Source of the DNA: Desulfobacter postgatei 2ac9
Lineage (GTDB): Bacteria; Desulfobacterota; Desulfobacteria; Desulfobacterales; Desulfobacteraceae
Length of the DNA stretch: 64,000 bases
Reading direction: 5' to 3'
Assembly (NCBI RefSeq): GCF_000233695.2
Contig: NZ_CM001488.1
Span: forward strand, 3,377,453 to 3,441,452
Below the pieces are notes generated by a model. That model saw only the letters and a list, made by a program, of their open reading frames with translations, was not told where the DNA came from and searched no databases. Positions 8,058 to 31,973 of the stretch are shown piece after piece. The position numbers were made by a program, and so were the translations under genes. Within the stretch, counting starts at the first letter, position 1. Each line of letters starts with the position of its first letter.

Positions 8058-9656
8058 TCAATATCGAACATTTCGTTTCAATTTTAAACCATGTTTTTTC
8101 ATCCGGCGAAACAGGGTGCTGCGGGAGATACCAAGCTTTGCCGCCGCACAGGAACGATGCCAGTTCGTCGATTGCAGTGCATTGATAATCTGTTCTTTTT
8201 CAACTGTTTTTATGGCATGGGAAAGGTCAGTGTTCGTGTCTCCAGGCGGAATGGATTGCTTGAAATGATCAGACTGGATTGGCTTGACCGTCATATTTAA
8301 AATTTCAAATTCGCCGGTGGAAAAAAACCGTAACAGGGCGTTTTGCAGTTCACGGATATTTCCGGGCCAGTCGTGATTTAAAATTTGTGCAGCAATATGG
8401 TTGGGGATTTTTTTTAAAGGACTGTTTTTGGCGTATATGTCGGTAAAGTGATCAATCAAGAGCGGAATGTCTTCTTTTCGATCTTTCAAAGGCGGCAGGA
8501 AGATGGGGATGACCTGGATACGGTAATAAAAATCTTCCCGCATAAATCCTTCACCGACCAATTGTTTCAAATTTTTGTTGGTGGCGGCAATAATCCGGAA
8601 ATCCGATGTTTGCTTTGATTGGCTGCCAATGGGATAATATCCGCCGCCGTCAATGGCCCGCAGCAACTTGACCTGCATGCTTAGCGGCAGGTCTCCGATT
8701 TCATCCAGAAACAAGGTGCCGGTATCTGCCAGATCCAGATATCCGTGTTTGTCAAATACCGCACCGGTAAAGGCCCCTTTTTTATAGCCGAAAAATTCGC
8801 TTTCCATCAGCGGTTCAGGAATGGCGCCGCAGTTGATGGTGACAAAGGCGTCGGCATTCCGGAGACTCAAATCATGAATGGCTCTGGCAACCAGTTCTTT
8901 CCCTGTTCCGGACTCGCCGTAGATCGAAACATTGGCATCAGAGTTGGCAGCCGTCAGTATTTGATCATATACATGCTGCATTGCCGGGCTCATCCCGATA
9001 ATATTCTGAAACCGGTACCGCTCTTTTATGCTGGATCGCAACCGGATATTTTCCTGAGTAACCAGGTGCTCTTTTTCTTTTTCCCGGGTGATATCCCCCA
9101 GGATGGAGAAGAGGGCAGGCGAGCTGTTCCAGGGGATTTTGGTCTGATTCTCTTCCACCCATATCCGATTTCCCTGTTTTGAGTGCAGTTCGTACTCAAT
9201 CGCTTTGAGTTGTTCAGTAATCTGTATGCGTTGTATGATTTTTCCGACCCGTTCGCAAACAGCATTGATCAGGTCCTGTTCTTCCTTGAGGAACGGCGTT
9301 TCAAGGTTTTGGTGAGGCTTCCGGGTCAGGTATACGGTTAACGATCCTATCTTTTTTCCTGAAAATTTTATTGGCGCAGAAATTTTCCATTGGTTAGGCG
9401 CATGGGGACAATTTTTATATGTTTTATTCAAGACGACTGCTGTTGCGGCGGATATGTCCGGATACTGAAGGCTGAAGGGAATGATCTCTACCACCTGCTG
9501 CATCAGAAAATCAATGTCAAGATTCTCTGTTTCGGCTATTTTTGAAATCGTATATAAGCAGTGAAGTTCTTTTTTTCTTTTTTCAAGATCAAAAGTCGTT
9601 TTTTTTAACTGATCTTTAAGGCTATTGATTTGTTCAATCAATTCATTCTGATTCAT
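8058..9656 (-). CDS. Sigma-54-dependent transcriptional activator (AAA+ and Fis HTH)
   Basis: This enhancer-binding protein of 532 residues would open sigma-54 promoters by ATP hydrolysis. The N-terminal 200 residues form a coiled coil plus a GAF-like region and a short PAS-like linker (SPALFSILGDITREKEKE), without a receiver domain, so the input signal is probably cytoplasmic. The AAA+ domain has Walker A GESGTGKE, the sigma-54 contact loop GAFTGA, Walker B TLFLDEIGD and an arginine-finger region. The C-terminus is a Fis-type helix-turn-helix (ISRSTLFRRMKKHG). It lies upstream of a sigma-54-like promoter at 7882-7898 and is the likely regulator of the chemotaxis cluster. Confidence 0.93.
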   Translation of the reverse strand: MNQNELIEQINSLKDQLKKTTFDLEKRKKELHCLYTISKIAETENLDIDFLMQQVVEIIPFSLQYPDISAATAVVLNKTYKNCPHAPNQWKISAPIKFSGKKIGSLTVYLTRKPHQNLETPFLKEEQDLINAVCERVGKIIQRIQITEQLKAIEYELHSKQGNRIWVEENQTKIPWNSSPALFSILGDITREKEKEHLVTQENIRLRSSIKERYRFQNIIGMSPAMQHVYDQILTAANSDANVSIYGESGTGKELVARAIHDLSLRNADAFVTINCGAIPEPLMESEFFGYKKGAFTGAVFDKHGYLDLADTGTLFLDEIGDLPLSMQVKLLRAIDGGGYYPIGSQSKQTSDFRIIAATNKNLKQLVGEGFMREDFYYRIQVIPIFLPPLKDRKEDIPLLIDHFTDIYAKNSPLKKIPNHIAAQILNHDWPGNIRELQNALLRFFSTGEFEILNMTVKPIQSDHFKQSIPPGDTNTDLSHAIKTVEKEQIINALQSTNWHRSCAAAKLGISRSTLFRRMKKHGLKLKRNVRY

Positions 9657-10698: not shown

Positions 10699-11451
10699 TC
10701 ACTGTTTTTCAGCCATGATCATGGCTGCGCCCAAGGCGCCCATCATCTGGGGGTGATTGGGGACAAGGACCTCTTTTTCCAGGGCATCTGCCACCATTTG
10801 CACCATACATGGGTTTTGTGCCACCCCGCCGGAGAATACAACGGGCCCTTGGGCTCCCACGCGGTTCAGCATGCCCACGGCACGTTTGACCACACTTAAG
10901 TGAAGACCCCGGGCGATCTCCTGTCGATCCTGGCCCTTGGCAATGAGCGATGTCACTTCAGACTCTGCAAAGACGGTGCACATGCTGTTGATCTGAAGAT
11001 CTTTTTGGGCAGCAAGGGCGGCCGGACCAAACTCATCCAGGGAAAACCCCAGATTCTGTGCCATGATTTCAAGAAACTTGCCCGTACCCGCAGCACACCG
11101 GTCATTCATTTCAAATTTCACCACCCGACCCTGTTCATTGAGCCGGATGGACTTACTGTCCTGGCCGCCAATATCAAGAATGGCAAGGGCTTCGGGGAAT
11201 TCAAGGCGAACGCCTGCAGCATGGGCTTTGATTTCCGTGACTGTTGATGCATCTTCAAACGCCACCTCAAAAAGGTTGCGTCCGTAACCTGTGGCCATGA
11301 TCTTGTCAAATTTTACCCCATCCATCACTTTTTTGGCCTGGGAAATGGGGTCAAATCCGGTATCTGTCTGGCGGGTTTCAATCACCTTTTTGTTTTCAAC
11401 CACTACCAGTTCAATGCTTCTGGAACCGATATCAATGCCTGCGCAAATCAT
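10699..11451 (-). CDS. ATPase activator of double-cubane/2-hydroxyacyl-CoA-dehydratase-type reductase
   Basis: This 250-residue ASKHA-fold ATPase belongs to the BadF/BadG/BcrA/BcrD (HgdC) family. A dimer holds one [4Fe-4S] cluster and injects low-potential electrons into its partner at the cost of ATP. It shows the phosphate loop AGIDIGSRS, the second nucleotide motif ILDIGGQDSK, and the two cluster cysteines in NDRCAAGTGKF and INSMCTVFAESEV. The ATG follows AAGGA and starts eight bases after the stop of the partner gene, so the two form an operon. With only one dehydratase-type subunit next to it, the pair resembles the DCCP reductase system (DCCP-R), not a two-subunit hydroxyglutaryl-CoA dehydratase. 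Confidence 0.9.
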   Translation of the reverse strand: MICAGIDIGSRSIELVVVENKKVIETRQTDTGFDPISQAKKVMDGVKFDKIMATGYGRNLFEVAFEDASTVTEIKAHAAGVRLEFPEALAILDIGGQDSKSIRLNEQGRVVKFEMNDRCAAGTGKFLEIMAQNLGFSLDEFGPAALAAQKDLQINSMCTVFAESEVTSLIAKGQDRQEIARGLHLSVVKRAVGMLNRVGAQGPVVFSGGVAQNPCMVQMVADALEKEVLVPNHPQMMGALGAAMIMAEKQ

Positions 11452-11459
11452 TTTTTTCC

Positions 11460-12740
11460 TTAGTCAGAGATTTGTTCTATAAAGGCTTCCACCCGGGTTT
11501 TAAGCTGCCCGACATCCTCCATGCCGTAATCGGTTTCAATCCTCATGCAGGGAATGCCTATTTTTTCAAGTTTATTTTCCACAGGGATGGATTCCATAAT
11601 ATAAGGCTGACAGAACTGCAGACCGTAATGGATCACACCGTCTGCACCATAGGCCTTGACCATTTCAACAATATGGTCGCTCCGGTCCTGGTTGGGGGTA
11701 AAAATAGCGCAGTCCACCTTGAAATATCGGTCTGTGATAGCCTCCATCAATTCATCCAGGTTTTTTCCTGAATCCTCGGTCAGATTCCGGGTGCCTCTTT
11801 CGCCCACGCAGGACTCTTCGCCTACGATTACGGCACCGGAGGTTTCAATTATCCAGGGCAGTTTCCAGTTGGGTACGGCCATGGGACAGCCGGAGATGAG
11901 AATCCTCGGGGTTTTTGAAGGGAATACGCCCTGATTTTTCTTAATTCGCACCTCAAGTTCGTCACAGATTTTGTTTACCGATTCGGTGAACCTGGCTGGA
12001 TTGTCGTAAAAGAACACTTGATTGGCCAGAAGGGCGTCAAGTCCTGAAATGGGAGCCGGGTCCGCCTTTCTTAATGTTGCCAGCCGGTGCAGGGCTGCTC
12101 GTTTGGCATTGACCACCTTAATTCCTTCCTTAAGGGATTCTACGGTGATCTTATTTCCCGTTAATTTCTCGACTGCTATTTTGAACCGTTCATATTCTGC
12201 TTTGAGAAGCGAGCGTCCCTGGCTGGATTTGACCTGGGGAAGGTCCATGACATAAAGGTTGTCCACTATACCGGCAAAGGTTTCATAGGCTTTTTTCTTT
12301 CCGTCACAGGTATTTTCTCCCACGATCATGTCTGCGCTTTCAAGGTAGGGACAAACCCTACCAAGCTTGAAACCAAAGGAGGACTTGATCAATGAACAGG
12401 TGTTTCTGGGTAAATGTTTTTCCACCTCCTCAACGGCAAAGTCCGCACCGGAACATAACCCTACCAGGGTGGCACCGCCTGCAAGCGCAATCTCTTCGGG
12501 AACAAATACGCAATAGCTGCCAATGATTTTACGGTTCTGCTTTTTTTCGTCCAAAAGCTCCTTGATTCTCAACCCATGAACCTCGCTCATGACAAAATCA
12601 AAATAACCCATGCCTTCGGGTCGATTTTTCTGGGCCAGGTAAATCTCCTGATACCCTTGTCCCAGAACGCCGAGCAATGCGTCGTGGGCATCCAAATCCA
12701 TGCCAAGGCTTTTCCACATGGGGGTGTAATCTTCGCTCAT
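11460..12740 (-). CDS. Double-cubane-cluster-type anaerobic reductase (HgdB/BcrC family, YjiM-like)
   Basis: This 426-residue protein belongs to the 2-hydroxyglutaryl-CoA dehydratase D-component family (PF06050). Conserved cysteines lie in SYCVFVPEE, GLCSGADF, NTCSLIKSS, GRVCPYLE, GENTCDGKKK, SGCPMAVP and GEESCVGERG. This number is consistent with more than one 4Fe-4S centre, as in the double-cubane proteins that use ATP-driven electrons to reduce small molecules. It is followed at once by its activator ATPase. No second dehydratase subunit or CoA-transferase is nearby, so a role in amino-acid fermentation is unlikely. The physiological substrate is unknown. The ATG has GGAG upstream. Confidence 0.85.
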   Translation of the reverse strand: MSEDYTPMWKSLGMDLDAHDALLGVLGQGYQEIYLAQKNRPEGMGYFDFVMSEVHGLRIKELLDEKKQNRKIIGSYCVFVPEEIALAGGATLVGLCSGADFAVEEVEKHLPRNTCSLIKSSFGFKLGRVCPYLESADMIVGENTCDGKKKAYETFAGIVDNLYVMDLPQVKSSQGRSLLKAEYERFKIAVEKLTGNKITVESLKEGIKVVNAKRAALHRLATLRKADPAPISGLDALLANQVFFYDNPARFTESVNKICDELEVRIKKNQGVFPSKTPRILISGCPMAVPNWKLPWIIETSGAVIVGEESCVGERGTRNLTEDSGKNLDELMEAITDRYFKVDCAIFTPNQDRSDHIVEMVKAYGADGVIHYGLQFCQPYIMESIPVENKLEKIGIPCMRIETDYGMEDVGQLKTRVEAFIEQISD

Positions 12741-12926
12741 TGTTGTACGCTCCTTTTTATGACATCAATATTTTTTTGTTCCCGCCACAGATAAAATGCC
12801 CTTTTTAAGTTGTTACGGACTCAATCTATGCTGAAAGTGTTCAGTATAAGGATGGCAAACGTTCGAATCAAAGCGAAAATATAAATAGAAAAGGTGAACT
12901 TGAATTGATATTTTTGATAAAAGATA

Positions 12927-12959
12927 CGGGGGCAGGATATGGATTATGTCCTGTCCCCG
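12927..12959 (-). terminator. Probable terminator of the Fe-S oxidoreductase gene
   Basis: Eleven-base arms (CGGGGGCAGGA and TCCTGTCCCCG, one wobble pair) enclose an 11-base loop, 47-80 bases past the stop of the minus-strand gene. The trailing sequence is U-rich but interrupted. The rest of 12741-13006 shows no gene. Confidence 0.5.
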
Positions 12960-13006
12960 AAATTTTTGTATTGTTTTATCGAAGAGTTAAATTTTCGTGA
13001 ACTGCT

Positions 13007-14335
13007 TTAATACTCGTCTTCTAGTTCTTGGCCTTCCGGCATGTTAAGTGCTTTCAGGTCCGGCCCCAGATATAGCCGTTCCGTTGCACCAAGCACACCT
13101 AATGAAAACGCAATCAGTGTCCATAAATGAATGGTATGGTATTTACATTCATAGTGATCCGCCAGCTTATGGACTTGATCGTGGCAGTTGTGACAGGGGG
13201 TGACACAGTAGTCTGCACCGGTGGCCAGGATCTGATCTTTTTTGATTTCACCGTATTTCAAACGTTCTTCGTTATAGCCGGATTGAAGGTATCCACCACC
13301 GCCGCCGCAACAGAAATTGTTGGAATAGTTCGGCTGCATGTCAATGAAGTTTTCTTCACCAACACAGGCTTTGATAACATAGCGCAAATCTGCGGCTAAT
13401 GGATCACCAAAGCTTTTTCGAACCTGTTGACAGGGGTCCTGGCATGTAAATGTGACTTTTAAGTCTTTGTTCCAGTCGGAACTGGGTTTGAGTTTACCTT
13501 CCCGTATCCATTTGGCATAATATGGAACAATGGGTGCAATTTCAAGACCGGTCTTATCTATATTGTATTTTTGCTGGCCCTTCCATATGGCATAGGTGGC
13601 GTGGCCGCATTCGGTGTTTAAATACACCTTACAACCCAGCTCCTTGGCAGATTCAATGGAGTTTCTTGCGGTTTTTTCCCAGCTTTCATCATCTGCAAGG
13701 AACATACAGTAATTTTCTCCACCCCAGCCCCGTGTGCCATAGGTCCAGTCTGCGCCGACAATGTGCAGAATTTTCCACAACGGAATCATCTCCTCGGGTT
13801 CCGTGCCTGGTTCACGGGAATTCTGGCTTAAAAAGAAGTGTGCTCCTTCTTTATTGACCGGTGCTTCAAGATCTTCCCAGCCCGGCTGGTTTTCATGAAC
13901 TTCATCAAGAATGTCGCCAACCACCCATTCAAAGTCCTCTTCGGAAATACCCATGGCGCTGCCGCTGGTGTTTCTCATGGCCATATCACATGAACCTAGA
14001 ATGCCTTTGGGTCTTTCTTCCCGGGGCCACGAGGCGCGGGCCTCAAACACCATTGCCGCAATATCAATATTCATCGGGCAGACATAAACACACCGCTGGC
14101 ACTGGGAGCATAACCACACCCATGGGTGCATGTGCAGTTCCTCGTCCATGCCCAAAGCCACCATCCTGACAAATTTGCGCGGATCCATATCCCGAAGCCC
14201 TGTTGCCGGGCAACCGGAAGCGCATGCGCCGCATGTCAGGCAGGTATTTAGATTGACACCATTAGGCAGTTTGTTCATCAGTTTTTCTTTAAACACTGCC
14301 TTTTTTCCTTTATCAAGTTTTACCGCCTCGGTCAT
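13007..14335 (-). CDS. HdrC/TmcB/DsrK-like iron-sulfur oxidoreductase with CCG domain
   Basis: This 442-residue cytoplasmic electron-transfer protein begins with two [4Fe-4S] motifs (CLTCGACASGCPA and CSQCQRCVYVCPM). It then carries a cysteine-rich CCG domain (QDPCQQVRK, CCGGGGGY, CHNCHDQ) of the kind that binds a non-cubane cluster in heterodisulfide reductase HdrB/HdrD and in DsrK/TmcB. Only one clear CCG copy is visible. No membrane partner or cytochrome is encoded alongside, unlike in Tmc, Qrc or Dsr operons, so it may work with distant partners. The ATG is preceded by AAGGAGG. The family level is certain, but the exact complex is not. Confidence 0.82.
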   Translation of the reverse strand: MTEAVKLDKGKKAVFKEKLMNKLPNGVNLNTCLTCGACASGCPATGLRDMDPRKFVRMVALGMDEELHMHPWVWLCSQCQRCVYVCPMNIDIAAMVFEARASWPREERPKGILGSCDMAMRNTSGSAMGISEEDFEWVVGDILDEVHENQPGWEDLEAPVNKEGAHFFLSQNSREPGTEPEEMIPLWKILHIVGADWTYGTRGWGGENYCMFLADDESWEKTARNSIESAKELGCKVYLNTECGHATYAIWKGQQKYNIDKTGLEIAPIVPYYAKWIREGKLKPSSDWNKDLKVTFTCQDPCQQVRKSFGDPLAADLRYVIKACVGEENFIDMQPNYSNNFCCGGGGGYLQSGYNEERLKYGEIKKDQILATGADYCVTPCHNCHDQVHKLADHYECKYHTIHLWTLIAFSLGVLGATERLYLGPDLKALNMPEGQELEDEY

Positions 14336-27956: not shown

Positions 27957-28493
27957 CTAGGACTGATTATTTACCCGGCAGCTGTAGATTGCCTTTCCGT
28001 CCCCTGGTTCGTAGAAATCATCCAGTACGGCTTCGCACCGGTATCCGCATCGTTCATAAAACATCCGGGTGGATGCATAGCCTTGCTGGGTTGAGGTTTC
28101 CACGTATACCCGCATACCTCCCTTTTCCCGGATCAACCGCTCCATCTCCCTTAGGATGCACTTTCCCAGGCCCTTTCCCTGGAACTTAGGTGCAACGGCG
28201 ATCCAGTATATGTCATAGCTGGTAAGGGTGCAGGGGATGGGGCCGAAACATCCGTACCCGGCCAGGTTGCCTTCTTTTTGCGCCATCACAAAATGATAGC
28301 CGCTCTCATCTCCCGATTTCAGGCACTCTTCCACAAGTTCCGCTGCAATGCTGATTTCATCGGGCCTGAAAAATCCGGTTTCCGTTACAAGGGTACGGAC
28401 ACTCTCAACATCAGACGCACGGGGCGTATATCGCAACCGGACATCTTTGGGAAAGGCATGGACCCCGACGGTTGGTGTTCTGCTCCCGGACAT
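27957..28493 (-). CDS. GNAT-family N-acetyltransferase (operon with KamA and ATP-grasp ligases)
   Basis: This 178-residue acyl-CoA-dependent N-acyltransferase has the GNAT core: an NLAGYGCFGPIPCT strand, then YWIAVAPKFQGKGLGKCIL, which holds the acetyl-CoA loop (Q/R-x-x-G-x-G/A form), and VYVETSTQQGYASTRMFYERCGY. The ATG at 28493 follows GGGAAATAG and starts five bases after the previous stop. As the last gene of a kamA, ATP-grasp, ATP-grasp, GNAT operon, it probably acetylates the ligase product or beta-lysine itself. It is not closely like AblB by length. The substrate is an inference. Confidence 0.85.
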   Translation of the reverse strand: MSGSRTPTVGVHAFPKDVRLRYTPRASDVESVRTLVTETGFFRPDEISIAAELVEECLKSGDESGYHFVMAQKEGNLAGYGCFGPIPCTLTSYDIYWIAVAPKFQGKGLGKCILREMERLIREKGGMRVYVETSTQQGYASTRMFYERCGYRCEAVLDDFYEPGDGKAIYSCRVNNQS

Positions 28494-28497
28494 GAGG

Positions 28498-29523
28498 CTA
28501 TTTCCCGGCCCGGATTACAGCATCCATAATCCTGGCAATGGCTGTGGTATATGAAATCCCGGCTCTGTCCAGGGCAGCCGTAAACCCAGCATCCGGGGAG
28601 ATGCAGGGGTTTGCGTTGACTTCCAGGATATGGGGATCTTTGTTGTCATCCACCCTGAAATCCACCCGGGCAAACCCTGCCAGGGAAAAGAGATCCCAGC
28701 AGGAAAGCGCGAGATCGGAAAGACGAGACAGCAGCTCCCTGTCGGTTTCAGAAAAGTCAAAACTGCGCAGGGTATGCTGGTATTCATAGGCCTCGGGGCA
28801 CCATTTTGCCCGATAGCCCACGATTTTCGGTTCATCCTGACCAAAATTCAGGAACCGGATTTCTGCAGGCGGCAGCACCCGGACCTCTTTTCCATCCCCA
28901 AGCAGGGAGAGGTTAAATTCCCGGCCATTGATGAATGCTTCGGCAAAACAGGCACGCCCCAACCCTTGTGCCGCTTTTTCCAGCAGAGGTCCCAGCCTGT
29001 CCGGCAGGGCTGTGATGATATTTTCCTTTTCCAGTCCAAGAGATCCGTGTTCCCAGAGGGACTTGATGATCCAGGGACCGTCGGTTACTCCTTTTTTTAA
29101 ATGTATCAATGCCCGGGATTGTACGGCCATACCGGCCTGGTATGGGCCGACCCAGTCCGGCGTCGGCAGCCCGGCCTGTCGCATCCGCTCCTTGGCCGCT
29201 GTCTTGTGGGAGGTCAGGTAAATGGCATCCGCCGGACAGCCGGTATAGGGAATGCCAAGACTGTCAAGCAGATACGGCACCACATGAATCAGTCGGCCTT
29301 CTCCTTCCAGGGATTCAACCAGATTGAATACCGCTCCGGGCTGAAGCGTCGTAAGATCGCGCTTAAAATGTTCAAGGTCCAACCCGCAGGGAACAGGTAC
29401 CGGATTAAAGTCAAGGTCCGTGAGGGCTTTTGAAACCGCAGCCACCTGGTCCAGGACATCAAGCTCATCCGGCTGGCTCTCCTGGGCCACAGCGTTATAA
29501 ACAACAGCAATGATTTTTTTCAT
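28498..29523 (-). CDS. ATP-grasp ligase, D-Ala-D-Ala ligase-like (second of pair)
   Basis: This ATP-grasp enzyme of 341 residues joins a carboxylate to an amine through an acyl phosphate. Visible motifs are the ATP-binding strand GPWIIKSLWEHGSLGL, FINGREFNLSLLG and the Mg-binding end FRVDDNKDPHILEVNANP. The ATG at 29523 overlaps the stop of the other ligase (ATGA) and follows GGGAGG. An upstream in-frame start is less likely. Two adjacent, only moderately similar ligases point to two successive amide bonds on a small molecule. MurC-F or ddl context is absent, so a cell-wall role is not supported. Confidence 0.85.
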   Translation of the reverse strand: MKKIIAVVYNAVAQESQPDELDVLDQVAAVSKALTDLDFNPVPVPCGLDLEHFKRDLTTLQPGAVFNLVESLEGEGRLIHVVPYLLDSLGIPYTGCPADAIYLTSHKTAAKERMRQAGLPTPDWVGPYQAGMAVQSRALIHLKKGVTDGPWIIKSLWEHGSLGLEKENIITALPDRLGPLLEKAAQGLGRACFAEAFINGREFNLSLLGDGKEVRVLPPAEIRFLNFGQDEPKIVGYRAKWCPEAYEYQHTLRSFDFSETDRELLSRLSDLALSCWDLFSLAGFARVDFRVDDNKDPHILEVNANPCISPDAGFTAALDRAGISYTTAIARIMDAVIRAGK

Positions 29524-30515
29524 TTGCCGACGCCGCCTCCCATCCGCCGGCATGCGGAGTTAAGGATGCATTCGATCAACCGGACATAGGATGTCCCAAA
29601 ATAGTCGCACAGGATGGGTAAATCGGAATATTCAGGGCGCAACCCGGCCAGGGGATTGACCTCAATGAAGCTTGGCTTTCCTTCAAGATCACACCGGATG
29701 TCGATCCGTCCACCGTCACGGCACCCCAGCGCGTTCCAGGAATCAAACGCCAGGCGCTCCACCTCCCGGATCAGGGGGTCTTCCTTGGCTGCCATCGGGT
29801 GGAGGGCCACCCGGCCTTTCCAGTTTTCTTTGTTCTCCAGGGAATAGGTTTGCCCCTTGGCCGCCTCGGTAAAAACAATCTCCATGGTTCCCATGATCCG
29901 GGCATCCGGTCCGGTCCCGGTCACTCCCACGGTAAATTCCCTGCCCGGAAGAAACTGTTCCACCAGTACGGGTTGATGAAATTGACGGATCAGATCCCGG
30001 CAAATTCCGGCAAGTACTCCGGAATCTTCAATTATTGACTTTTCCGTTATGCCCATACCCGTACCCTCGGCCACGGGTTTGGCAAAAAAAGGCGGAGTAA
30101 AGGGAATCGGCTGGGGCAGGGCGCCGTTAACCACCACGAATGGCGATGTTGCCAGGCCCGCATCCCTGATAATCTGTTTGGTCAACGCCTTGTTCAGGCA
30201 AAGACCCATCACCACAGGATCGGAAAAAGTATAAGGAATTCCGTACACATCCAGAATCGCCGGAACCTGTGCTTCACGGGCCGCTCCCTTGAGTCCTTCG
30301 GCAATGTTGAAAACAAGATCCCAGGTTTCCCCTTTTACCAGCGCTTTCATCAGCGCTTTGGCATGGCCGATGCGGACCGGGACATGGCCGAGTTCCAACA
30401 GCACACCCTCAATGGCCTCAATGGTTTCAACAACATCCAGTTCAGCAGTTTCCAGTTCATTGTACCCCATGTCAAGATACTCCTGACGCAAATCATAGGT
30501 CATTCCGATTTTCAA
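29520..30515 (-). CDS. ATP-grasp ligase, D-Ala-D-Ala ligase-like (first of pair)
   Basis: This 331-residue ATP-grasp ligase starts with TTG, supported by GAGGA six bases upstream. The N-terminal domain (MTYDLRQEYL, then LVFNIAEGLKGAAREAQVPA) matches D-Ala-D-Ala ligase-type folds. ATP motifs are PFFAKPVAEGTGMGI and QFLPGREFTVGVTG, and the metal-binding end is CDLEGKPSFIEVNPLAGL. It is the second gene of the kamA operon, 52 bases downstream of kamA, and is translationally coupled to the next ligase. The substrate may be a beta-amino acid supplied by KamA (inference). Confidence 0.86.
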   Translation of the reverse strand: MKIGMTYDLRQEYLDMGYNELETAELDVVETIEAIEGVLLELGHVPVRIGHAKALMKALVKGETWDLVFNIAEGLKGAAREAQVPAILDVYGIPYTFSDPVVMGLCLNKALTKQIIRDAGLATSPFVVVNGALPQPIPFTPPFFAKPVAEGTGMGITEKSIIEDSGVLAGICRDLIRQFHQPVLVEQFLPGREFTVGVTGTGPDARIMGTMEIVFTEAAKGQTYSLENKENWKGRVALHPMAAKEDPLIREVERLAFDSWNALGCRDGGRIDIRCDLEGKPSFIEVNPLAGLRPEYSDLPILCDYFGTSYVRLIECILNSACRRMGGGVGK

Positions 30516-30567
30516 GTTGTTTCCTCGCTTTTTTTATACGGCTGTGCCGCCGAAATTGGGTTTTGGC

Positions 30568-31893
30568 TTATTTCAATACGTCTTCAGCAGGGGCTGAAAC
30601 CGGATCGGGGTACAAGAAGGTGCGGTTCTCATAATTGATCATGACCAGGTTGTCGGTGGTATGGCCTTGAATATAGTCAGGCATGAGCGGAATTTTTCCA
30701 CCACCGCCAGGGGCGTCCACCACATAGGTCGGAACAGCGTACCCGCTGGTAAACCCCCGCAGGCTGCGGATGATTTCCAGGCCCTTTTCAATGGAGGTCC
30801 TGAAATGGCCGGAACCGGTGATGGGATCGCACTGGTACAGATAATAGGGACGGACCCGCATTTTCATCAGGCCGTGCATCAGGGATGCCATGGTCTTGGC
30901 CGAATCATTGATGCCTTTGAGCAGAACGGTCTGGGATCCAAGCGGGATACCTGCATCCGCAAGCCTTGCACAGGCTTTGGCGGTCTCGGGTGTACATTCG
31001 TCAGCATGGGTGAAATGCAGACTCATCCACAGGGGATGGTATTTTTTCAACATTTTTACCAGATTGGGCGTGATGCGCTGGGGAAGAACCGCAGGGACTT
31101 TGGTCCCAATGCGGATCACCTCCACATGGTCAATCTGCCTCAGCCTTGACAATACCCATTCCAGGCGGTCATCTGCCAATGTCAGCGGGTCTCCCCCGGA
31201 CAACAGGACGTCACGGACGGCAGGCGTTTTTTCAATGTATTTTAAGGCCTTTTCCCACCGTACCCGGCTGGGATGTATGGTGCCGTGGCCTACCACCCGG
31301 GAACGGGTGCAGTACCGGCAATAGGTGGAACAAAAATCCGACAACAGAAACAGGACCCGGTCCGGATACCTGTGGACAAGGCCGGGAACAGGACTTTGTT
31401 GGTCTTCGCCCAGGGGATCGTCGGATTCTCCCGGCATCTGAAGCCATTCGTTCACGTTGGGAACAACACATTTGCGCAGGGGGTGGTCCGGGTCATCCGG
31501 TGAAATCAGGCTCAGGTAATAGGGCGTGATGCTCAACGGAAGCTGGGAGGTCCTGTTGACCAGGGTCTCTTCCTGGGACAGGGTAAGGAACCGGCTGAGT
31601 TTTTCGTGGCTCTGGATACGGTTTTGCAGCTGCCACTGCCAGTTGTTCCATTCTTTATCGGAAATCAGAGGATAAAATTTTTTCCGAAAGGCTTTTGTTT
31701 TTATGGTTGTTTTCCCATGATGGGAAACCAGACTTGTTTTCTTTTCGGGGATCCGGGGTGTGGGTGTTAATAAAGACCGGAGAGATTCTCCGGCCAAGGA
31801 CAAAGGGTCATCTTCTTCCGATTTCCGAATACTGGGAGGCTTGTCATCTTCGACCAAAATATTTGGCCTGGCGGCTTTTTGGTTATTATTCAT
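30568..31893 (-). CDS. kamA: Lysine 2,3-aminomutase (radical SAM, PLP)
   Basis: This 441-residue radical SAM enzyme interconverts L-alpha-lysine and beta-lysine. It carries the cluster motif CSTYCRYCTR (C-x3-C-x2-C) and the PLP lysine in DAPGGGGKIPL. The two aspartates that hold the lysine side-chain amine (CDPITGSGHFR and VVDAPGG) are both present, which favours lysine over glutamate as substrate. The ATG at 31893 is preceded by GGAAGGA. An upstream in-frame ATG would place the start too near the promoter. The 5' leader begins just after a sigma-54 promoter. Downstream genes encode two ligases and an acetyltransferase, so beta-lysine is probably built into a larger product. Confidence 0.9.
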   Translation of the reverse strand: MNNNQKAARPNILVEDDKPPSIRKSEEDDPLSLAGESLRSLLTPTPRIPEKKTSLVSHHGKTTIKTKAFRKKFYPLISDKEWNNWQWQLQNRIQSHEKLSRFLTLSQEETLVNRTSQLPLSITPYYLSLISPDDPDHPLRKCVVPNVNEWLQMPGESDDPLGEDQQSPVPGLVHRYPDRVLFLLSDFCSTYCRYCTRSRVVGHGTIHPSRVRWEKALKYIEKTPAVRDVLLSGGDPLTLADDRLEWVLSRLRQIDHVEVIRIGTKVPAVLPQRITPNLVKMLKKYHPLWMSLHFTHADECTPETAKACARLADAGIPLGSQTVLLKGINDSAKTMASLMHGLMKMRVRPYYLYQCDPITGSGHFRTSIEKGLEIIRSLRGFTSGYAVPTYVVDAPGGGGKIPLMPDYIQGHTTDNLVMINYENRTFLYPDPVSAPAEDVLK

Positions 31894-31956
31894 TTTTTCC
31901 TTCCAAATACAGATCATTTTAGGTGAGGTCATATTGTTCAGCCGTTTTACGTTCAA

Positions 31957-31973
31957 AGCAATCCTCGTGCCAA
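31957..31973 (-). promoter_or_regulatory. Consensus sigma-54 promoter of the kamA operon
   Basis: The minus strand reads TGGCACGAGGATTGCT: a perfect -24 box (TGGCAC), five bases, then the -12 box TTGCT. The expected start of transcription is about 50 bases upstream of the kamA ATG. The promoter implies control by a sigma-54 activator, often tied to nitrogen, osmotic or envelope signals. Confidence 0.8.

Follow-up and report, generated by a model that had tools for sequence, protein, structure and literature searches.

Among the closest known counterparts of the cluster reported here is the AblA/AblB system of methanogens and some bacteria, which makes Nε-acetyl-β-lysine by pairing a KamA-type lysine 2,3-aminomutase with an acetyltransferase. 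A second point of reference is the N-acetylglutaminylglutamine amide pathway, which builds a short acetylated peptide through ligase and GNAT activities and also includes a hydrolase. We analyzed a 64,000-nt stretch of the genome of Desulfobacter postgatei 2ac9 (NZ_CM001488.1), referred to as the window, on which the coordinates are based unless a locus is named; L and G numbers are labels for loci and genomes. The window holds genes for a KamA-type enzyme, two ATP-grasp ligases (Lig1 and Lig2) with the fold of D-alanine-D-alanine ligase (Ddl), and a GNAT N-acetyltransferase. The cluster shares the aminomutase and the acetyltransferase with AblA/AblB, but differs from it in the two added ligases, in a GNAT that is not AblB, in a KamA that scores below the AblA cut-off, and in the deacetylase of some relatives. 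With the N-acetylglutaminylglutamine amide pathway it has in common the principle of joining a short peptide by a ligase and acetylating it by a GNAT, whereas β-lysine would stand in for glutamine and the ligases are of the Ddl fold; no family of that pathway was among the matches shown (E 0.001) for the four proteins. Our best explanation, to which we assign a probability of roughly 0.5, is that kamA, lig1, lig2, and gnat form a single biosynthetic operon for a reversibly N-acetylated β-lysine peptide, perhaps a solute, transcribed from a σ54 promoter. It is built on sequence evidence, namely the enzyme families, the lysine-type residues of KamA, the operon layout, the conservation of the genes together, and the σ54 site.

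KamA matched the NCBIfam model TIGR00238 at 357 bits, above the cut-off of 199, and its sole solved relative was the lysine 2,3-aminomutase of Clostridium (2a5h, E 5e-136). Alignment with 2a5h revealed the CxxxCxxC cysteines, Arg134, Asp293, Asp330, and Lys337, which we take to serve the Fe-S cluster (the cysteines), the substrate carboxylate (Arg134), lysine binding (both aspartates), and pyridoxal phosphate (Lys337). These seven residues were invariant in 32/32 KamA rows, that of the window included, which confirmed the claim of the sequence-only reading that both lysine-binding aspartates are present; the same residues were also found in all 13 rows from 12 more unlinked or divergent loci. 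The EpmB-like paralogue of the genome has Asp at the 293 position and Glu at the 330 position, and the alignment of a distant Bradyrhizobium KamA-like protein gave neither lysine aspartate. Lysine is therefore well supported as the predicted substrate. KamA scored below the glutamate 2,3-aminomutase model (419 bits vs a cut-off of 650). An assignment as EpmB was rejected (TIGR03821, 260 bits vs a cut-off of 369), the EpmB-like gene lying elsewhere in the genome at 360 bits.

The four genes recur together in other genomes, as the sequence-only reading required. A survey of 395 genomes of the phylum covered Lig1, Lig2, and KamA, with Lig2 matches counted down to about 204 bits and KamA matches down to about 530 bits; GNAT was counted at the loci read. 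Within 1.5 kb of the 82 Lig1 loci scoring at least 399 bits, Lig2 was found in 76, KamA in 74, and both in 68, so that Lig1 and Lig2 are the tightest pair, and KamA joins Lig1 at 74 of these loci. This close version of Lig1 occurs in 81 of the 395 genomes, about a fifth. In numbers inflated by shared ancestry, Lig1 was found in 140 genomes (1e-60) and Lig2 in 137 (at least about 204 bits), with 133 common to both, out of 144 having either one, and KamA of at least 530 bits was present in 131 of the 140 Lig1 genomes vs 13 of the 255 others. Among 16 Lig1 loci of 322–344 bits, KamA was at most 8 kb away in 14 and at most 1.5 kb away in 1. For 44 more divergent Lig1 loci (230–285 bits), Lig2 lay within 1.5 kb in 40 and KamA in 17, and KamA of at least 530 bits was found somewhere in 40 of their genomes.

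Fifty-seven loci were read at length; they are a chosen set, which includes cut contigs and loci picked as unusual, and domains were called in them from 90 bits (GNAT from 70 bits). All four gene types were present in 36 of these 57. The order of transcription was KamA-Lig1-Lig2-GNAT, Lig1-Lig2-GNAT-KamA (L107, L162, and L163), or deacetylase-Lig1-Lig2-KamA (L106), and the linkage thus survives reshuffled gene order and fusions. In a set of 59 genomes, comprising the window's own and its relatives, a Lig1 match at 1e-20 was obtained in 26, and 14, the own genome included, reached at least 52% identity; among the 19 genomes of the genus this level was attained only in the window's genome and in G013. 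A contig scan yielded 21 loci in records of Desulfobacteraceae, other Deltaproteobacteria, Bacteroidetes, Flavobacteriales, Lentisphaerae, Nitrospirae, Myxococcales, and Proteobacteria. The titles mark all of these as metagenome-assembled genomes, so that some of the taxon labels may be binning errors; KamA adjoined Lig1 in 20 of the 21, the exception being L048. In a survey centered on G449, the genome of the Bacteroidetes-labelled L047, 53 of 247 genomes matched at 1e-60, G449 alone above 400 bits and the remaining 52 at 206–290 bits. Fifteen loci of that survey were read (L131–L145), and the 14 besides that of G449 held Lig1 in 14, Lig2 in 13, and GNAT in 12; KamA lay beyond the reach of their 1.5-kb flanks and could be assessed in two longer stretches, both of which have it. 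Distance correlations among the four genes were 0.70–0.87, a range that does not separate joint inheritance from species history.

For both ligases, the solved structures nearest in sequence and in fold are Ddl and Van ligases. Their AlphaFold2 models (mean predicted local distance difference test, pLDDT, 89 for Lig1 and 91 for Lig2) found Ddl as the best Foldseek match in each case, and substrates were not discernible from these models. The metal-binding Glu/Asn of Ddl-type ATP-grasp enzymes is invariant (E285/N287 in Lig1 and E301/N303 in Lig2) in alignments of 30 chosen rows for each ligase (A1 and A2), from which duplicates and cut rows were omitted (for Lig1: L015/L029, L034, and L051–L053). 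Each family also has invariants of its own, for example where the acceptor loop ends: S297-D298-L299 in Lig1, and P306-C307 with a nearly invariant P310-D311 in Lig2. Profiles of the two families gave about 350–550 bits with their own members and about 70–145 bits with the other family. In the tree, Lig2 formed its own branch (support 99/98) and Lig1 stood apart from it with a blurred border, Lig1 not being one closed group because the branches of the five Ddl rows are very long. Lig1 and Lig2 look like ligases of two different specificities. In L100 (4760–6799) and L101 (4640–6748), one reading frame holds two Lig1-like ligase domains in tandem, and in both genomes Lig2 with GNAT is on separate contigs (L158 and L160).

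The best solved relative of GNAT was 2r7h (E 2.3e-43), presumably from a Desulfovibrio, whose name, “putative D-alanine N-acetyltransferase,” is itself only putative; we know of no established activity for it. Within the 57 loci, a GNAT-like domain was fused to an HDAC-family deacetylase domain in 14, in 9 of which the fusion extends into the final GNAT too, and Lig2 was fused to GNAT in 6 others. Among solved proteins, the deacetylase domain is closest to acetylpolyamine amidohydrolases (9gkz and 6phr), which act on small amines, although the GNAT-like N-terminal fusion sets it apart from them. Its His-His dyad, the DxH and Asp that we take to be metal ligands, and the presumed catalytic Tyr were invariant in 14/14 of these related clusters. 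The fused acetyltransferase and deacetylase argue for reversible acetylation of an amine in the related clusters. In L157 (42–4604), a gene for such a fusion lies between two kamA genes, with the ligases on another contig. Short repeats, CMGHTLQAE and CMGHIVQAG among them, make up an internal insert in the GNAT frame of L043 (7325–8053).

As regards transcription, the promoter TGGCACGAGGATTGCT was the lone exact match in the 64 kb to what we take to be the σ54 consensus, where 0.02 would be expected from shuffled sequences. It begins 79 nt ahead of the KamA ATG, and the core of such a site was also found at 80 nt in L055 and at 78 nt in L036; the spacers differ, and a Shine-Dalgarno-like stretch precedes the ATG. 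A -24/-12 element at a plausible distance and an rpoN gene in the genome are what would be looked for in a σ54-dependent operon, and both were found. The perfect site of the window was confirmed, and a σ54 site is kept in close relatives; σ54 as a general rule for the cluster was rejected, since only 6 of 32 rows scored at least 13/15, where the score of L046 is void (cut contig) and, for L037, 6% of random stretches also reach at least 13. L098, L099, and L116, the three loci read from one other family, all encode an NtrC-type σ54-activator response regulator between Lig1 and KamA. Genes for σ54 activators, which are common, were seen close to the cluster in L034, L036, L053, L056, and L064, those of L036 and L056 being confirmed. 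The window itself encodes a σ54 activator with a Fis-type helix-turn-helix at 8058–9656, some 18–22 kb from the operon.

Every element of the arrangement first described, KamA, two ATP-grasp ligases, and a GNAT behind a σ54-type site, was found in the window (Table 1). The description “without gaps” applies to Lig1 and Lig2, which overlap by ATGA (29520–29523), and does not hold between KamA and Lig1, which are spaced by 52 nt; Lig2 and GNAT are 4 nt apart. The open reading frame list starts kamA at a TTG (31956) abutting the promoter, and the ATG at 31891–31893 behind GGAAGG is the likelier start. The TTG start of Lig1 is preceded by AGGAA, and the same position is nearly always Met in the 30 aligned rows. 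By eye, heat-shock-like genes (groEL, lon, and hsp20) are among the neighbors, and genes for a BadF/BcrA-type ATPase, a 2-hydroxyglutaryl-CoA dehydratase D-component, and an Fe-S/CCG protein lie in tandem at 10699–14335.

Table 1. Features of the kamA-lig1-lig2-gnat locus, in window coordinates.
Feature	Position	Strand	Basis
σ54-type (-24/-12) promoter TGGCACGAGGATTGCT	31957-31972	-	exact consensus match, upstream of kamA
Ribosome-binding site GGAAGG before the kamA ATG	31899-31904	-	sequence
KamA, lysine 2,3-aminomutase-like radical SAM enzyme, 441 aa	30568-31893	-	TIGR00238, 2a5h alignment
Lig1, D-Ala-D-Ala-ligase-fold ATP-grasp ligase, 331 aa, TTG start	29520-30515	-	PF07478 72 bits
Lig2, second, distinct Ddl-fold ATP-grasp ligase, 341 aa	28498-29523	-	PF07478 65 bits
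GNAT N-acetyltransferase, 178 aa	27957-28493	-	PF00583

Substrates, product, order of steps, and role are proposed as follows. KamA would convert L-lysine to β-lysine, a step predicted with good confidence. Lig1 and Lig2 would form amide bonds via acyl phosphates to give a β-lysine-containing di- or tripeptide, with fair confidence drawn from the gene linkage. GNAT would acetylate a free amine on the peptide, most likely the ω-amine, again with fair confidence in view of the Lig2-GNAT fusions and the small-amine type of the deacetylase. In many relatives, the fused GNAT-deacetylase of the acetylpolyamine amidohydrolase type would remove the acetyl group, making the cap reversible. No single transporter type recurred among the recurring flank families looked at, and for this reason the product probably stays inside the cell; together with the patchy presence of the cluster, this weakly suggests a compatible or stress solute. 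The recurring families were one of histidine kinases, with five members including that of the window, one of σ54 activators and a CBS-domain response regulator, and one of ABC ATPases; only the near-identical loci L041, L043, L044, and L052 had a common aminotransferase, a DJ-1/PfpI protein, and a flavodoxin-like protein. In Desulfobacter postgatei 2ac9, transcription would proceed from the σ54 promoter. A bolder version, in which the cluster is a widespread undescribed pathway for an N-acetylated β-lysine tripeptide as a new class of intracellular solute, with a bifunctional acetyltransferase-deacetylase and a σ54 link to nitrogen or stress in sulfate reducers, is offered only tentatively.

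Several observations weigh against this explanation. No good σ54 site is found in 26 of the 32 rows, and none scoring at least 13 lies on the coding strand in L098, L099, and L116. The window operon is without a deacetylase, with just a general homologue elsewhere in the genome, and no GNAT was seen in 7 of the 48 Lig2-bearing loci, L098, L099, and L116 among them, some of these contigs being cut. Both aspartates are present in the KamA of L165 though its genome is without Lig1, and weaker KamA-family matches are frequent (227/395 genomes at 1e-100). KamA lies beyond 1.5 kb in 27 of the 44 divergent Lig1 loci, and the ligases there might therefore use other amino acids. ABC ATPases of differing kinds occur in the flanks of five loci, so that transporter genes are not absent, and the L050 flank holds a pair of them; one of the two was scanned and proved to be of the oligopeptide type.

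The product could instead be a β-lysine peptide with a metal-binding, signalling, or defensive function, perhaps exported, rather than a solute, which we regard as possible though unlikely. The oligopeptide-type ATPase flanking L050 and the patchy distribution of the cluster would suit such a peptide, as would the KamA and ATP-grasp genes found with diaminopropionate/diaminobutyrate genes on a Thioflavicoccus plasmid and with genes for a γ-glutamyltransferase and a seven-transmembrane (7TM) protein in Bradyrhizobium; however, the ABC ATPases of the five flanks do not converge on one transporter type, and the deacetylase of the related clusters suggests turnover inside the cell. Protein lysine acetylation offers another scheme, in which GNAT and the GNAT-deacetylase would switch the ligases or KamA and act on no metabolite, as in the switch that AcuA and AcuC exert on acetyl-CoA synthetase. 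The affinity of the HDAC domain to small-amine enzymes and the absence of a deacetylase beside the window's GNAT make this rather improbable, even though GNAT and an HDAC-family protein co-occur and are fused in 9 of the 57 chosen loci.

Quite improbable, too, is plain Nε-acetyl-β-lysine, formed as with AblA/AblB, with ligases that serve another step and are merely co-transcribed. KamA does score 491.3 bits with the AblA equivalog model TIGR03820 (cut-off 525.4), and a GNAT is present. This GNAT, however, is not AblB (TIGR03827, 20.6 bits vs a cut-off of 205), a search of the genome with the same model detected no AblB (no match at 0.001), and Lig1, Lig2, and GNAT stand together in L105, L108, L114, and L115, stretches without KamA. 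With KamA below the AblA cut-off and a GNAT other than AblB, the plain AblA/AblB assignment was set aside. Lig1 and Lig2 are very unlikely to be extra cell-wall D-Ala-D-Ala or D-Ala-D-X ligases, a role that their nearest solved structures would suggest. They fall far below the Ddl cut-offs of TIGR01205 (246) and PRK01372 (243), with 93 and 121 bits for Lig1 and 80 and 91 bits for Lig2; the genome has a separate true Ddl (312 bits); the ligases co-occur with KamA; and by eye the N-terminal region and the acceptor-loop end of both are unlike Ddl. The cell-wall role was set aside on the scores and the separate Ddl. That KamA belongs to lysine fermentation, whose first step uses the same kind of enzyme, is extremely unlikely with ligases and a GNAT in the operon and not fermentation genes, although no search of the genome was made for lysine 5,6-aminomutase or the steps that follow it.

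The acetylated β-lysine peptide remains our preferred product, and related gene pairs were seen elsewhere. The Thioflavicoccus and rhizobial clusters resemble the present one in that a KamA-family gene stands beside an ATP-grasp ligase gene, but a single ligase is annotated there, with other partner genes. On the Thioflavicoccus mobilis plasmid (L172, 6025–11506), a KamA gene faces a D-Ala-D-Ala-ligase-like gene that is lined up with genes for ornithine cyclodeaminase, SbnA, and diaminobutyrate transaminase, an arrangement that looks like another unusual diamino-acid peptide cluster. On a plasmid of the soybean isolate Bradyrhizobium barranii (L168, 4198–8963), KamA-like, γ-glutamyltransferase, 7TM, and ATP-grasp genes lie in a row, the KamA-like gene being the one without the lysine aspartates; a second record of the strain (L169) lists no KamA gene there. 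In two further rhizobial plasmids (L170, 7195–8421; L171, 4529–5785), a KamA gene adjoins a gene whose annotation reads “acetyl-CoA carboxylase biotin carboxylase family.” Because KamA-family genes elsewhere adjoin other kinds of ATP-grasp gene, the coupling of aminomutases to peptide ligases may be more general. NifA belongs to the σ54 activators. In nodules of Paraburkholderia phymatum, a D-alanine-D-alanine ligase gene (Bphy_7633) and matE (Bphy_7634) are listed as down by a log2 of about -8 in a nifA mutant (PMC8305402, Table 1).

No description of the cluster was found in the literature searched, as judged by titles and abstracts, with most subscription papers outside our reach. A 2009 survey of ATP-grasp/GNAT amidoligase neighborhoods by Iyer and others reportedly may list the association, and an earlier description is possible. 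To our knowledge, no product has been assigned to this pathway. If a new β-lysine solute is indeed made, it would help to explain how sulfate reducers and the organisms around them deal with salt or with the supply of nitrogen, and the pathway would provide two peptide ligases whose specificity is unusual. All four proteins lend themselves to expression and direct assay. The joint occurrence of these genes across many bacteria points to a small-molecule product.

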